Shown here: positions 57,293-63,025 of the stretch, one piece after another
Layout of the letters: the number at the start of each line of letters is the position of its first letter
How positions within the stretch are numbered: position 1 is the first letter of the stretch
Origin: Labilithrix sp.
GTDB taxonomy: Bacteria; Myxococcota_A; Polyangia; Polyangiales; Polyangiaceae
Assembly: GCA_019637175.1 (NCBI GenBank)
Contig: JAHBWD010000004.1
Location: 1-64,000, forward strand
DNA: 64,000 nt
Direction of reading: 5' to 3'
The notes under the pieces: generated by a model
Seen by the model: only the letters and a program-made list of their open reading frames with translations
Told to the model about the DNA's origin: nothing
The model's database searches: none
Program-made: the position numbers and the translations under genes

Positions 57293-58441
57293 TCAAGCCG
57301 CGTCGACGCGCGCGACCATGGCGCTGCCGCCGCCGAAGACGACGGCGTCGAGGAGGAGCTCGTCTTCGACCAGGGCGAGCGAGGGGTGATCGCGCGAGAT
57401 CCGGAGCGTTCCTCCGGCGTCGGCGAAGCCGCACGCGAGCGCGCCCTCGCTCGATCCCGCCTTCCACAGCTCGGCCGCGGGCGTCGCTCCCGCGGGGTCG
57501 AAGGTCACGCGCTTGCCGCTGCGAAGACGCTCGAGAGTCTCGAGCGCGCGCAGATCGGCGATCGGATCGGTGATGACGTGGCTGTCGATGCCGGTGCAGA
57601 GGCGCGCCCCCGAAGCGCGGAGCGCGCCGAGATCGGGCAGACCGTCGCCGAGATCGGCCTCGGTCGTCGCGCAGACGCAAGCGAACGCGCGCGCGCGCCC
57701 GAGCAGCTCGGCTTCGTGCGGCGCGAGGTGCGTCGCGTGCACGGCCACGAAGCGATCCGAGAGCACGCCGAGATCGGCGAGCAGCTCGACCGGCCGCTTC
57801 CCCGTCTCGGCGACGCACTCCTCGATCTCGCGCGGCTGCTCCGCCACGTGCATGTGGAACGGCATCGCGTGGCGCGCTGCGTACGCGGCGAGCTCGGCGA
57901 TCCAGCTAGGCGGAACGGCGCGCACCGAGTGGGGGGCGACGCCCACGCGCACGTCGGGATCATTCTTGTATTTTACATATAAATCCTCGACGTCGCGGAG
58001 CACGGCGTCGACGGTGGGGTCGCAGAAGCGCCGCTGCCCCGGCTCGGGATCGCGACCGGGGCCCGCCCGGTGATAGGCGACGCGGAGGAGCGCGATGCGC
58101 AGCCCCTCGGCCTTCGCCGCGCGGATCATCGCGTCGCTCATGATCGTGCGATCGACGTACGGCGTCCCGTCGGGTTGGTGGTGAACGTAGTGAAACTCCC
58201 CGACCGTACGCACGCCCGCGGCGCGCAGCTCACGGAAGGCGACTCGGCCGATCGCCTCGATCGACGCGGGATCCACCGACGAAGCGGCGCGATACATCGC
58301 GCCCCTCCACGACCAGAAGTCTTCACGCGTCCCTCGAGGGCGCTGCGCCGCACCGCGCATGGCGCGCTGGAACGCGTGCGAATGGACGGTCGTGAGCGCC
58401 GGCAAGCTCAGCGTTCGGCCGTCGGGGGACAGCGACAGCAT
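57293..58441 (-). CDS. hutF: Formimidoylglutamate deiminase (HutF)
   Basis: A 382-residue amidohydrolase of histidine degradation, releasing ammonia from N-formimidoyl-glutamate. Metal and active-site motifs: VHSHAFQRAMRG, HMHVAEQPREIEEC and the Asp motif CTGIDSH. Typical HutF is ~450 residues and begins with a small beta domain; here the first residues are MLSLSPDGRTLSLPAL, so the N-terminal part is short and may be trimmed. No other hut genes are adjacent. Its start lies 25 bases from the divergent kinase-fusion start, so regulation is probably shared. Confidence 0.85.
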   Translation of the reverse strand: MLSLSPDGRTLSLPALTTVHSHAFQRAMRGAAQRPRGTREDFWSWRGAMYRAASSVDPASIEAIGRVAFRELRAAGVRTVGEFHYVHHQPDGTPYVDRTIMSDAMIRAAKAEGLRIALLRVAYHRAGPGRDPEPGQRRFCDPTVDAVLRDVEDLYVKYKNDPDVRVGVAPHSVRAVPPSWIAELAAYAARHAMPFHMHVAEQPREIEECVAETGKRPVELLADLGVLSDRFVAVHATHLAPHEAELLGRARAFACVCATTEADLGDGLPDLGALRASGARLCTGIDSHVITDPIADLRALETLERLRSGKRVTFDPAGATPAAELWKAGSSEGALACGFADAGGTLRISRDHPSLALVEDELLLDAVVFGGGSAMVARVDAA

Positions 58442-58466
58442 CGCCCACGCAAGCTACCATCGATCC

Positions 58467-61250
58467 GTGCGCGAGGAGGGACCCGCGAGCGACGCAACGC
58501 AAACGGAGGTGCCCGGCGAGCTGACGGTCCCGATCGCTCCGGTGGCGGACGAAGCGAAGCCCGTCGTCGCCGGCTACGACATGGTCCGCGTCCTCGGGCG
58601 GGGGGGCATGGGCGTCGTGTGGGAGGCGATCGAGCACCGCTTCGACCGGCGCGTCGCCGTGAAGGTCCACGCCGAAGGCCGCGCGCTCCTCCCCGACGAG
58701 CTCTGGTCGGAGGCCTTGATCGCGGCGCGGATCGGAGATCCTGGGATCGTTCGCGTCCTCGACGTCGGGCTCACCTTGGCCGAGCGCCCGTACTACGCGA
58801 TGGAGCTCGTCGACGGGACCGATCTCGCGACGCTCCTCGCCGACGGCCCGCTCGCGCCGCGCAAGGCGGTCGATGTCGCTGCCGACGTCGCGCGCGCCGC
58901 CGCCGCGGCGCACGAGTACGGCGTCATCCATCGCGATCTCAAGCCGCGGAACGTGATCGTCGACCCGACGGGGCGCGCGCGCGTGCTCGACTTCGGGATC
59001 GCGCTCGACACGCGCGCGTCGGACGTCGATCCGTACGCCGGCCAGCTCGCGGGCTCGCCGGCCTACATGGCCCCGGAGCAGGCGCTGGGCCATCCGGTGG
59101 TACCGCAGACCGACATCTTCGCGATCGGCGTGATGCTCTACGAGATGTTGACCGGCGCGAGGCCGTTCGAGGGCTCGTCGAGAGAGGCGCTGCTCTTCAA
59201 CATCGCCGCGGGAGACGTTCGGCCGCCGTCGGCGATGAACGCGAGCATCCATCGCGATCTCGACGCGGTCGTCGGTCGGTGCCTCGCGAAGTCGGCCGAG
59301 GATCGCTTCCCGACGGCGCGCGCGCTCTTCGAGACGCTGTGCGCCATCGCCGAAGGTCGACCGATCGACACGGCGCCGCAGAGCCTCAGGCGGCCGTACA
59401 TCCCCAAGGTCTCGACCGTTCCTCCGCCGGATCGCCCGCGGCGCGACGAGGCGAAGAAGCACCTGTCGTGGAGCTGGCGGCTCGCGTCGTCGCCGGGCGC
59501 GCTATGGCCCCACGTCGCCAACACCGATCGCTTCAACAAAGCCGTCGGTCTCGCGCCGATCGTCTTCACCGACGAGCCTGCCCCCGAAGGCGGCGCGATC
59601 CGAACGGGCGAGATGCGCGTCCTCGGCATGGCCATCCGGTGGCGCGAGTTCCCCTTCGAGTGGGTGAAGGACCGCGAGCACTCGGTATTCCGCTGGTATC
59701 GGAGCGGCCCGCTCGCCGCGCTGTGGAATCGCGTCAAGCTCACCCCGATCGAAGGTGGTGGCACCGAGCTCGAGCACGACATCTGGCTCACGCCGCGCGG
59801 CGTCGTCGGTCAGGTCGCGGCGTTCGTCGAGATCGATCGCAAGCTCGGACCGGCCGTCGATCGCTTCTACCGCCACCTCGACGACGTGCTCGTCGCCGGC
59901 GGCCACGTCGATCCCTTCGAGCCGGCGCACGCGCCGACGCCCGATCAAGGCGCGACGGTCGAGGCGGCGTGCGCGCGGCTGCGCGCCGAGGGGTTCGCGC
60001 CCGCGATCGTCGAGCGGCTCGCGATGCACCTGCTCACCGCGCCCGACGGCGTGCTCGGCGCGCTGCGCCCTCACGCGCTCGCCGACGCGTGGCGCGCGGA
60101 TCGCTCCGAGGTCCTCGACGTGCTCATGCACGCGGCGCACGCAGGCGCGCTCGAGCCGGCGTGGGACGTCGTGTGCCCGAGGTGCATGCTCGCCCACGAG
60201 TCGCTCCAAGGGCTCGCGCAGATCACGCGCGTCGGCACATGCTCGGCGTGCGCGACCTCGTTCGAACGCGATCTGCGCGATTCGGTCGAGCTCGTGTTCG
60301 TCCCCTCGCCGAGCGTGCGCAGCGTGCCGCGGACGACTTATTGCGCGGGCGCGCCCGCGCTTCGCCCCCACGTCGTCGCCCAGCAGGTGGTCGAGCCGGG
60401 CGGCGAGCGCCGGTTGACGATGGATCTCACGCGCGGCGAGTACCGGGTGACGGGCGCGCTCGCGAGCGCCGCCGGCGAGCTCGTCGCGAGCGCCGTCGGC
60501 TTCGAAAGCGAGGCGACGGCGGTCGCCCGCGACGGGCGGATCCACGTCCGACCGTCGATCGTGCGCGCGGGAACGGTCACGCTCGTCCTCCGCAACGAGG
60601 GCGACGACGAGGAGACGCTCCGCCTCGAGCTGGCCGGCGCGCGCGGCGACGGCGTCGCCGCGGCGACGGCGATGACCCATCCCGCGTTTCGCGAGCTCTT
60701 CGCCGACCAGCTCCTCGCGCACGGAGAGCACCTTCGGGTCAGCCACCTCGCGTTCGTGTTCGTCGAGCTCATCGGGCGACAGGGCGTCTTCGAGAAGCTC
60801 GGTGACGCCTCGGCGTGCGCCGAGCTCACGCGGCTCGACGAGCTCGTTCGCGCACGAGCCCGTGCCCATGAAGGCACCGCCGTCCCGAGCTCGCTCGACA
60901 TCCTGATCGTCGCGTTCCCCACGGTGCAGCGCGCCCTGCGGGCGGCGCTCGAGCTTCGAATGGGCGTCGACGAAGCGCGACTCTCGGCGCCGGTCGCGAT
61001 CGCCGCGCACGACGGTCGATGCATCGCCCTGACGCGCGAGGGCAAGCCCGAGTTCTTCGGCGAGACGCTCCTCCGCGGCCAGGCGCTCTTGCGCGACTGT
61101 CCGACCGGCGGGATCGCGCTCAGCGCGACGCTGGCAGCCGACCGCGCCGTCGCCGTCGCGGTGCACGAGTCCGGCATGCGCGTCGGCGTGGTCAAGTCGG
61201 ACGCCGGGCCCTACGCCGGGCGCCGCGTGACCGTGCTCGCGCCCGCGTGA
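58467..61250 (+). CDS. Ser/Thr kinase - START-like - DUF5939 - cyclase-like fusion
   Basis: A 927-residue protein starting with GTG at 58467, chosen to avoid overlap with the divergent hutF. A Hanks-type kinase (~30-300) has LGRGGMGVVWE, catalytic HRDLKPRN (~155) and DFGIAL, all intact. Residues ~330-490 look like a START/SRPBCC domain (SSPGALWPHVANTDRFNKAV, GTELEHDIWLTPRG). Next comes a DUF5939-like zinc-ribbon (CPRCML and CSAC at ~569-595), then a C-terminal class-III cyclase-like fold (~745-925). The cyclase metal site FTDLKGST is changed to FVELIGRQ, so it is probably not catalytic. Confidence 0.82.
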   Translation: MREEGPASDATQTEVPGELTVPIAPVADEAKPVVAGYDMVRVLGRGGMGVVWEAIEHRFDRRVAVKVHAEGRALLPDELWSEALIAARIGDPGIVRVLDVGLTLAERPYYAMELVDGTDLATLLADGPLAPRKAVDVAADVARAAAAAHEYGVIHRDLKPRNVIVDPTGRARVLDFGIALDTRASDVDPYAGQLAGSPAYMAPEQALGHPVVPQTDIFAIGVMLYEMLTGARPFEGSSREALLFNIAAGDVRPPSAMNASIHRDLDAVVGRCLAKSAEDRFPTARALFETLCAIAEGRPIDTAPQSLRRPYIPKVSTVPPPDRPRRDEAKKHLSWSWRLASSPGALWPHVANTDRFNKAVGLAPIVFTDEPAPEGGAIRTGEMRVLGMAIRWREFPFEWVKDREHSVFRWYRSGPLAALWNRVKLTPIEGGGTELEHDIWLTPRGVVGQVAAFVEIDRKLGPAVDRFYRHLDDVLVAGGHVDPFEPAHAPTPDQGATVEAACARLRAEGFAPAIVERLAMHLLTAPDGVLGALRPHALADAWRADRSEVLDVLMHAAHAGALEPAWDVVCPRCMLAHESLQGLAQITRVGTCSACATSFERDLRDSVELVFVPSPSVRSVPRTTYCAGAPALRPHVVAQQVVEPGGERRLTMDLTRGEYRVTGALASAAGELVASAVGFESEATAVARDGRIHVRPSIVRAGTVTLVLRNEGDDEETLRLELAGARGDGVAAATAMTHPAFRELFADQLLAHGEHLRVSHLAFVFVELIGRQGVFEKLGDASACAELTRLDELVRARARAHEGTAVPSSLDILIVAFPTVQRALRAALELRMGVDEARLSAPVAIAAHDGRCIALTREGKPEFFGETLLRGQALLRDCPTGGIALSATLAADRAVAVAVHESGMRVGVVKSDAGPYAGRRVTVLAPA

Positions 61251-61261
61251 GAAGATCGGCT

Positions 61262-63025
61262 GTGCGGATCGGCCTCGGTTGCATGCGCTTGTCGACGGAC
61301 GCAGACCGCGACGAAGCGCGCGCCCTCGAGACGATCCGAGCGGCGTTCGACGGCGGCGTGCGGCTCTTCGACACCGCGCGCGCATACGGAGTCGACGGCG
61401 CCGACGAGGGACACAACGAGCGGCTCGTCGCCCGCGCGCTCTCGGGCCGCGAAGGCGGGCGCGTCGTGACGAAGTGCGGAATGCGCCGCGAAGGTTGGAT
61501 CCCCGACGGTCGCGCGTCGACGATCGCGCGCGACGCCGCGGCGAGCGCGATCGCCCTCGGACGGCCCCTCGACGTCTTGCTCCTCCACGCGCCCGATCCC
61601 AGGACGCCGCTCGTGACGAGCGTGCGCGCGCTCGATCGCGCGCGCAAGGACGGCGTGGCGCGATCCATCGGCGTCTCCAACGTATCCCGCAAGCAGCTCG
61701 AAGAGATCGCGACGGTCGCGCGCGTCGACGTCGTCGAGATCGCGCTCGGCGCCTACGACGACGCTGCCGTACGCGGAGGCGTCGTCGCGTGGTGCGCGGA
61801 GCGCGGCGTCGAGCTGCTCGCGCACTCGCCGCTGGGCGGACCGGCGCGCGCGCCCCGCCTCGCTCGTGACGTGCGGCTCCGTGCGCTCGCCGAGCGCGCG
61901 GGCGCCACCGCTCACGAGCTGGTGCTCGCGTACCTGCTCGCCGTGCATCCGTCGATCATGCTGCTGGTGGGCGCACGGCGCGCGAACGCGGCGGCGAGCG
62001 CGGTCGCGGCGGCGCGGATCGCGCTCGACGACGAGCTCCTCTTCGCGCTCGACGCGCGCTTTCCGGGCCTCGCGCTCCTGCGACGACCTCCGCCGCGGCC
62101 GCCCGAGACGAGCACGCGCGAGGTCGTCATCTTGATGGGGATCCCGGGAGCAGGAAAGTCGACGGCGGCCAAGGCCTACGTCGATCGCGGGCACGTCCGG
62201 CTCAATCGAGACACCGTCGGCGGCACGCTCGCCGGGATCGCCAAGCGCCTCGACGAGGTGTTGCGCAAGGGCGCGACCGGCGTCGTGCTCGACAACACCT
62301 ACGTCTCGCGAGCCTCTCGGAGCGAGGTCGTGAGGATCGCGCACACCCACGGCGCACACGTCAGGTGCGTGCACTTCGACACGCCGCCGCACGAAGCGCA
62401 GCGCAACGTCGTCTCGCGGATGCTCGAGCGCCACGGCGCGCTGCTCGGCCCGAAGGAGATCGCGTCGCTCTCCAAGAGAGATCCGACGGCGCTCGGGCCC
62501 AACGCGCTCCGTCGCCTGCTCGGCGAGCTCGAAGCGCCGGCGCCCGAAGAGGGGTTCGCGTCCGTCGACGTCGTCACCTTCACGCGGCGGCACGATCCGC
62601 GAGCGACCGCGCGCGGAGCCGCGATCGCCCTCGACGCGATCGCGCGACGGGCAGGAGACGGCTACGCGCTCGCGGCAGACGCGCGTGCGATCTTCGACGA
62701 CCTCCCCGCCGGATCGCGCGCGCTGGTGTTCGGATGGATCCCCGACGCGAGCCCCGCGCTCGTCGCGTCGACGACGGCGCTGCTCCGCGAGGCCCACGGG
62801 GCAGAGCTTGCATTATGCACACATTTGGCCGGACCGCCGCTCTGCTGGTGCCGGCCTCCCCTCCCCGGCCTCTGGCTCGCCTTCGCGCGCGCGCACGGCC
62901 TCGACGCGCGGGCGAGCGTCCTCGTGGGCACGGGCGCGTCGCACGCGTCGATGGCCCGCGCGCTCGAGATGACCTACCTCGAGCGGCCGCTCACTGGCGC
63001 ATCAAGTCCGCCGCGGACCGCGTGA
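61262..63025 (+). CDS. Aldo/keto reductase fused to Pnkp-like P-loop kinase
   Basis: A 587-residue fusion starting with GTG at 61262, eleven bases after the kinase-fusion stop. Residues ~1-270 form an aldo/keto reductase barrel: GGVRLFDTARAYG (Asp, Tyr), VVTKCGM (Lys) and LLLHAPDP (His) give the full catalytic tetrad. From ~285, a polynucleotide-kinase-like P-loop domain follows: ILMGIPGAGKSTAAKAYVD (~294), VRLNRDTVGG and VLDNTYVSRASRSEV. The C-terminal ~130 residues resemble a HAD-fold phosphatase lacking its catalytic Asp (VGTGASHASMARA). I know of no standard role for this combination. Its 3' end overlaps the next minus-strand gene by 35 bases. Confidence 0.82.
   Translation: MRIGLGCMRLSTDADRDEARALETIRAAFDGGVRLFDTARAYGVDGADEGHNERLVARALSGREGGRVVTKCGMRREGWIPDGRASTIARDAAASAIALGRPLDVLLLHAPDPRTPLVTSVRALDRARKDGVARSIGVSNVSRKQLEEIATVARVDVVEIALGAYDDAAVRGGVVAWCAERGVELLAHSPLGGPARAPRLARDVRLRALAERAGATAHELVLAYLLAVHPSIMLLVGARRANAAASAVAAARIALDDELLFALDARFPGLALLRRPPPRPPETSTREVVILMGIPGAGKSTAAKAYVDRGHVRLNRDTVGGTLAGIAKRLDEVLRKGATGVVLDNTYVSRASRSEVVRIAHTHGAHVRCVHFDTPPHEAQRNVVSRMLERHGALLGPKEIASLSKRDPTALGPNALRRLLGELEAPAPEEGFASVDVVTFTRRHDPRATARGAAIALDAIARRAGDGYALAADARAIFDDLPAGSRALVFGWIPDASPALVASTTALLREAHGAELALCTHLAGPPLCWCRPPLPGLWLAFARAHGLDARASVLVGTGASHASMARALEMTYLERPLTGASSPPRTA

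Follow-up and report, generated by a model that had tools for sequence, protein, structure and literature searches.

Why would a carbonyl reductase be fused covalently with a kinase from the class that heals nucleic-acid ends? The question is raised by one gene of the window, the 64,000-nt stretch of Labilithrix sp. contig JAHBWD010000004.1 analysed here, the product of which includes: (i) an aldo/keto reductase (AKR) domain, (ii) a PNKP-type polynucleotide kinase domain and (iii) a degenerate HAD-IIIA domain (Table 1).

The gene opens with GTG at 61262 and closes with TGA at 63023-63025, spanning 587 codons with no internal stop. The GTG start is supported by the homologues of the fusion gene, which begin with MRIGLGCMRLS. 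The first-pass annotation had placed one polypeptide at this position, and its coordinates and frame prove correct, with a single open frame throughout. The two separate translation products that it had named as a possible refutation are unlikely, as one open frame is found in 35 genomes. Two genes misread as one are also rejected as an explanation, given the single open frame at 36 distinct loci, and contamination or an isolated artefact is rejected in view of the conservation of the fusion over the phylum.

A Ser/Thr protein kinase gene with a DUF5939 domain (58359-61250, + strand) stops 11 nt upstream of the fusion gene. By eye, the C-terminal stretch of this kinase looks like a class III nucleotidyl cyclase in degenerate form, and the opposite-strand ORF beside it (57293-58441, - strand) resembles a formimidoylglutamate deiminase (HutF-type amidohydrolase). 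An operon partner that supplies the substrate was considered and rejected, as none is conserved; the upstream Ser/Thr kinase is not syntenic in other genomes. No conserved operon or repair neighbours of the bacterial fusion genes were found in neighbourhoods derived from a home-made gene caller.

Table 1. Features of the fusion gene and its product in window coordinates.
Feature	Position	Strand	Details
AKR - PNKP-type kinase - degenerate HAD fusion gene	61262..63025	+	587 aa, GTG start, TGA stop
Aldo/keto reductase domain, residues 2-268	61265..62065	+	PF00248, fold alignment
AKR tetrad Asp37 (D37)	61370..61372	+	35/35 invariant
AKR tetrad Tyr42 (Y42)	61385..61387	+	35/35 invariant
AKR tetrad Lys71 (K71)	61472..61474	+	35/35 invariant
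AKR tetrad His109 (H109)	61586..61588	+	35/35 invariant
AKR residue 188	61823..61825	+	His in 31/36 fused AKRs; stand-alone AKRs mostly Tyr
PNKP-type polynucleotide kinase domain, residues 284-442	62111..62587	+	AAA_33, TIGR01663, family profile
P-loop GIPGAGKST, residues 293-301	62138..62164	+	G293, G298, K299 in 52/52
NRD motif, residues 315-317	62204..62212	+	R316, D317 in 52/52; aligns with catalytic-Asp NRD of PNKP
Degenerate HAD-IIIA domain, residues 443-575	62588..62986	+	Motif table; relatives with DxDGT match PNK3P
Retained Cys/His site C519 H521 C528 C530 (HisB/GmhB-type zinc loop)	62816..62851	+	Each in 50-51 of 52 rows

Domains of the fusion protein

The AKR domain matches PF00248 (Aldo_ket_red) over residues 2-264 (Pfam, E 2.8e-39). 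In VIA-align, the predicted model of the domain aligns with AKR13B2 (8hnq; Z 32.2, 253 residues, rmsd 1.5) and with the pyridoxal reductase PdxI (Z 30); Kv-beta also appears among the AKR matches. The complete catalytic tetrad announced in the first-pass annotation (D37, Y42, K71 and H109) is present and unchanged in the 35 aligned fused proteins. By its whole-domain fold and its tetrad, the domain is a member of the AKR superfamily, and its predicted activity is NAD(P)H-dependent carbonyl reduction. Position 188 is near the nicotinamide in other AKRs. The fold is generic, with AKR13 and PdxI nearest, and R76 and W79, which reside near the active site, are also present in stand-alone AKRs; thus, nothing in the AKR domain points to nucleic acid.

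The kinase domain matches the AAA_33 P-loop kinases at residues 288-390 (Pfam, E 3.1e-17) and NCBIfam TIGR01663 (PNK-3'Pase) at E 1.3e-15. As the latter match is confined to the kinase part and scores 56.8 bits vs a curated cut-off of 502.8, the window protein is not a full eukaryotic-type PNKP. The P-loop described earlier is present as GIPGAGKST, and the Asp of the NRD motif serves as the general base in PNKP. Residues G293, G298, K299, R316, D317, R353, R386 and E430 are invariant in all 52 aligned kinase-HAD rows, and the lack of kinase conservation that the first pass had named as a possible refutation is thereby refuted. The window sequence alone detects PNKP at E 5.1e-10 (phmmer). Among solved structures, the family profile matches mouse PNKP (1yj5) at E 1.1e-39, with the kinase and phosphatase stretches matched separately, followed by weaker matches to T4 Pnkp, Clostridium thermocellum Pnkp and Pnkp1. 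The C. thermocellum structure is deposited as a metallophosphoesterase, and we take it to be Pnkp. Besides these, the profile matches HAD phosphatases and a pair of P-loop proteins that includes one named as a Rhizopus kinase. The first-pass likening to T4 polynucleotide kinase stands as regards the type of enzyme, but not as regards the closest relative: judged by these profile comparisons, the window kinase resembles mammalian PNKP more closely than it does the T4 enzyme. Phosphorylation of 5'-OH ends of DNA or RNA is the activity predicted for it.

The HAD domain of the window protein is decayed in all four motifs. The nucleophile position of motif I is A456 (AAIALDAI vs LLLDVDGT in relatives), with D458 kept, and motifs II, III and IV are also lost (GW for NQ, Pro for the motif III Lys and no GD). 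Pfam finds no PNK3P (PF08645) match in the window protein; relatives L020 (8.3e-10) and L034 (1.2e-8) do match this family. Intact HAD domains, with DxDGT, SNQ or a close form, CRKP and GD..D, are noted in L019-L021, L034 and the phage copies, and the aligned columns show DxDGT in L049, L090, L104 and L110. The intact-HAD relatives also match GmhB and HisB. About half of the family retains an intact domain, and decay is found chiefly in a single clade, to which the window protein belongs; on the kinase-only tree, the decayed copies are essentially one clade of 21 rows with support that is not firm (90/78), plus L061 and L054. The HAD-like C-terminus without its catalytic Asp, as claimed in the first pass, is thereby borne out for the window protein, but degeneracy is only in part a trait of the family. 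What is left of the window HAD probably serves a structural or nucleic-acid-binding purpose around the putative metal site formed by the retained Cys and His residues.

The model of the window protein (pLDDT 95.1, pTM 0.90; HAD region pLDDT 85-97) suggests that the domains are held in a well-defined arrangement; the model of the intact-HAD relative L020 has a pLDDT of 94.2 and a pTM of 0.80. Fold searches with full models list only AKRs. As the AKR domain fills these lists, the kinase and HAD domains are compared by sequence only.

Distribution of the fusion and its large-phage relatives

About 17 full-length homologues are found among the 96 relatives searched, and further ones were recovered when 377 genomes of the window's phylum were searched. 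Domain mapping of six-frame ORFs identifies the AKR and kinase in one frame in 36 distinct proteins from 35 genomes of many families, in a sampling that covered mainly the window's phylum. The search for the same fusion in other genomes, suggested in the first pass, is thus answered by a three-domain ORF in 35 genomes of this phylum, and presence in so many genomes indicates that the fusion is not due to chance. Identity to the window protein drops to about 32-35% among the fused homologues. Pairwise dN/dS is below 0.5 for every domain in every computable pair; in one close pair the decayed HAD evolves under weaker constraint than the other domains (0.31 vs 0.11-0.13), but is still constrained. 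The AKR, kinase and HAD domains are all under purifying selection. Plasmid searches returned only AKR-only or HAD-dominated partial matches, and one scan of genome contigs returned only stand-alone AKRs. In 64 genomes of the phylum to which G424 belongs (the Gemmatimonadetes record from which L035 comes), no kinase-HAD was found at E 1e-25; this constitutes weak evidence that it is absent there.

The complete bacterial kinase-HAD copies that are free of an AKR are L031, L034 and L042, all of which fall outside a supported clade of 42 rows (95/93). No demonstrably complete AKR-less bacterial member was found within this clade. Secondary loss of the AKR was considered for L022, L023, L048, L049, L051 and L054, which reside inside the fused clade, and was rejected; these sequences reach contig ends, and the AKR is therefore probably just cut off. 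The fused L061 falls outside the 42-row clade on an unresolved branch, and the phage row L110 falls inside it with weak support and a long branch. A single fusion event fits, but is not proven by, the kinase tree; the fused AKRs need two changes on the AKR tree, which neither proves nor excludes one origin. In L034 (1129-2070 and 2088-3191, both - strand), the stand-alone kinase-HAD gene directly follows a gene that by eye resembles ferrochelatase hemH.

A scan of viral contigs reveals eight AKR-less kinase-HAD proteins with 38-44% identity to the query, and relatives are also present in two phage records, 462 and 595 kb in length. PNK-HAD fusions are known from jumbo phages, where they are described as RNA repair parts (PMC7824862). 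RNA ligase genes (Pfam PF09414) reside within 5 kb of the kinase-HAD gene at 5/8 phage loci (L104, L106, L108, L109 and L111). The RNA ligases of L108 match PF09511 besides PF09414, and this phage also encodes a second, T4-type Pnkp with PF25109. This RNA-ligase neighbourhood is the strongest functional context of the family and points to nucleic-acid ends. Two different Pnkp-like proteins close together, along with RNA ligases, are observed in L106, L108, L109 and L111. In two huge phages, ORFs near the kinase-HAD gene (L115:6895-8583 and L116:6013-6504) resemble by eye NAD synthetase and NADAR, neighbours that hint at NAD-linked nucleic-acid repair.

Proposed role at oxidised nucleic-acid ends

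The window protein is proposed to heal nucleic-acid ends as a PNKP-type enzyme to which an NADPH-type aldehyde reductase is covalently attached, with the 5'-aldehyde route as the most likely one; we assign this reading a probability of about 0.4. The repair of damaged ends had been suggested in the first pass, and the part of that suggestion that concerns nucleic-acid ends is upheld by a kinase-HAD that is PNKP-like in both halves, by key kinase residues that are invariant in 52 relatives and by the RNA ligases near the phage copies. The fusion alone makes it plausible that the AKR acts on the same damaged ends as the kinase; neither residues nor neighbours that tie the AKR to such ends were found.

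In the proposed mechanism, the AKR would act first, on carbonyl-bearing oxidised ends. Its most likely substrate would be the 5'-aldehyde terminus that arises from C5' hydrogen abstraction, which would be reduced to a 5'-OH. The kinase would then phosphorylate this 5'-OH end in DNA or RNA, with the substrates, the order of the steps and any preference for DNA or RNA all presumed. In relatives that retain the intact and presumably ancestral HAD, this domain would remove the 3'-phosphate across the same break, so that both ends would be made ligatable by one polypeptide. The window protein would instead leave the 3' end to another enzyme, which could be a LigD 3'-phosphoesterase. A LigD 3'-phosphoesterase (PE) domain is present in the window's genome, and no Rnl2-type ligase was found there.

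Breaks of the neocarzinostatin type carry a 3'-phosphate opposite the 5'-aldehyde. We know of no enzyme for the direct reversal of 5'-aldehyde ends, and, if the proposal is true, a reductase bound to a 5'-kinase would provide such a route for abundant and stable termini of radical damage. The 5'-aldehyde ends are a major and long-lived product of DNA oxidation, for which only a non-specific long-patch repair (synthesis and flap cutting) is described, in vitro (PMC12564780). In RNA, the 5'-aldehyde is the main hydroxyl-radical product and is converted to a 5'-OH by borohydride (PMC4227780). A more specific form of the proposal, in which the family is dedicated to the one-polypeptide repair of C5'-oxidised DNA or RNA breaks (AKR reduction, phosphorylation and, in half of the family, removal of the 3'-phosphate by the HAD), is viewed as rather unlikely.

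Other readings differ mainly in what the AKR is thought to do. The kinase-HAD may heal ends while the AKR reduces another aldehyde lesion, such as an abasic site in its ring-opened form or the 3'-unsaturated aldehyde generated by AP lyases. The same domain evidence serves this reading as serves the 5'-aldehyde route, and these lesions are common and are processed alongside PNKP during base excision repair (PMC12564780). It is nevertheless considered improbable: a reduced abasic site or 3'-PUA is by itself no substrate for a 5'-kinase, whereas a reduced 5'-aldehyde is. About equally improbable is an AKR that acts as a redox sensor, the bound NADP(H) state of which would tune the end-healing kinase by analogy with the Kv-beta subunits, where a regulatory AKR is attached to a protein of different function. 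The nearly strict fusion in the clade would suit a sensor, but the full tetrad in 35/35 fused proteins is what an enzyme would be expected to show. The tetrad is also retained in Kv-beta, and its invariance is thus compatible with sensing.

The fusion protein may instead act on small molecules, with the AKR reducing the aldehyde of a sugar or a vitamin, in the way that PdxI acts on pyridoxal, and the product then being phosphorylated or dephosphorylated by the kinase and HAD. While the resemblance of the AKR to PdxI and the GmhB and HisB matches of the intact-HAD relatives favour such a role, the solved structures that the kinase profile detects are chiefly polynucleotide kinases, the phage homologues reside near RNA ligases and the PNKP phosphatase itself has HAD-IIIA similarity to GmhB; a small-molecule role is, on balance, unlikely. 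That two unrelated enzymes were joined by chance and have no joint function would agree with the lack of a shared operon partner in bacteria and with the existence of stand-alone AKR-less homologues. This reading is judged very improbable, as 35 genomes retain the fusion at identities down to about 35% and the 42-row clade is devoid of a demonstrably complete AKR-less bacterial member. The preferred reading is end healing with reduction of the 5'-aldehyde.

Comparison with known enzymes

No earlier description of an AKR-kinase-HAD fusion was found in the searchable full-text literature. With this family comes a branch from bacteria and large phages in which the kinase is nearer to PNKP of animals than to that of T4; the family also exhibits a HAD domain in which the catalytic residues are lost and the putative metal site is kept.

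The AKR13 and PdxI-like AKRs share the full fold (Z 30-32) and tetrad of the fused AKRs. By contrast, they are stand-alone proteins of about 280-330 aa, and their residue 188 is mostly Tyr rather than the His188 of most fused proteins. GmhB and HisB are similar in their HAD-IIIA fold type, Cys/His metal loop and CxCRxPxPG motif, but are small-molecule phosphatases with neither a fused kinase nor an AKR, and their nucleophile is missing from the window protein. Mammalian PNKP has the kinase motifs of the family (GxPGAGKST, NRD, DNT and ExPxxxEGF) and a HAD-IIIA phosphatase like that of the relatives. It differs in its HAD-kinase order, as the fusion family is kinase-HAD with an N-terminal AKR and has no FHA domain match; in the alignment it lacks the HisB/GmhB-type Cys/His loop; and its HAD contrasts with the catalytically decayed HAD of the window protein. 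T4 Pnkp and the PNK-HAD proteins of jumbo phages share the order of kinase then HAD, and phage members of the same family reside near RNA ligases; the T4-type HAD, however, is of a different family (PF25109), and neither group has an AKR.
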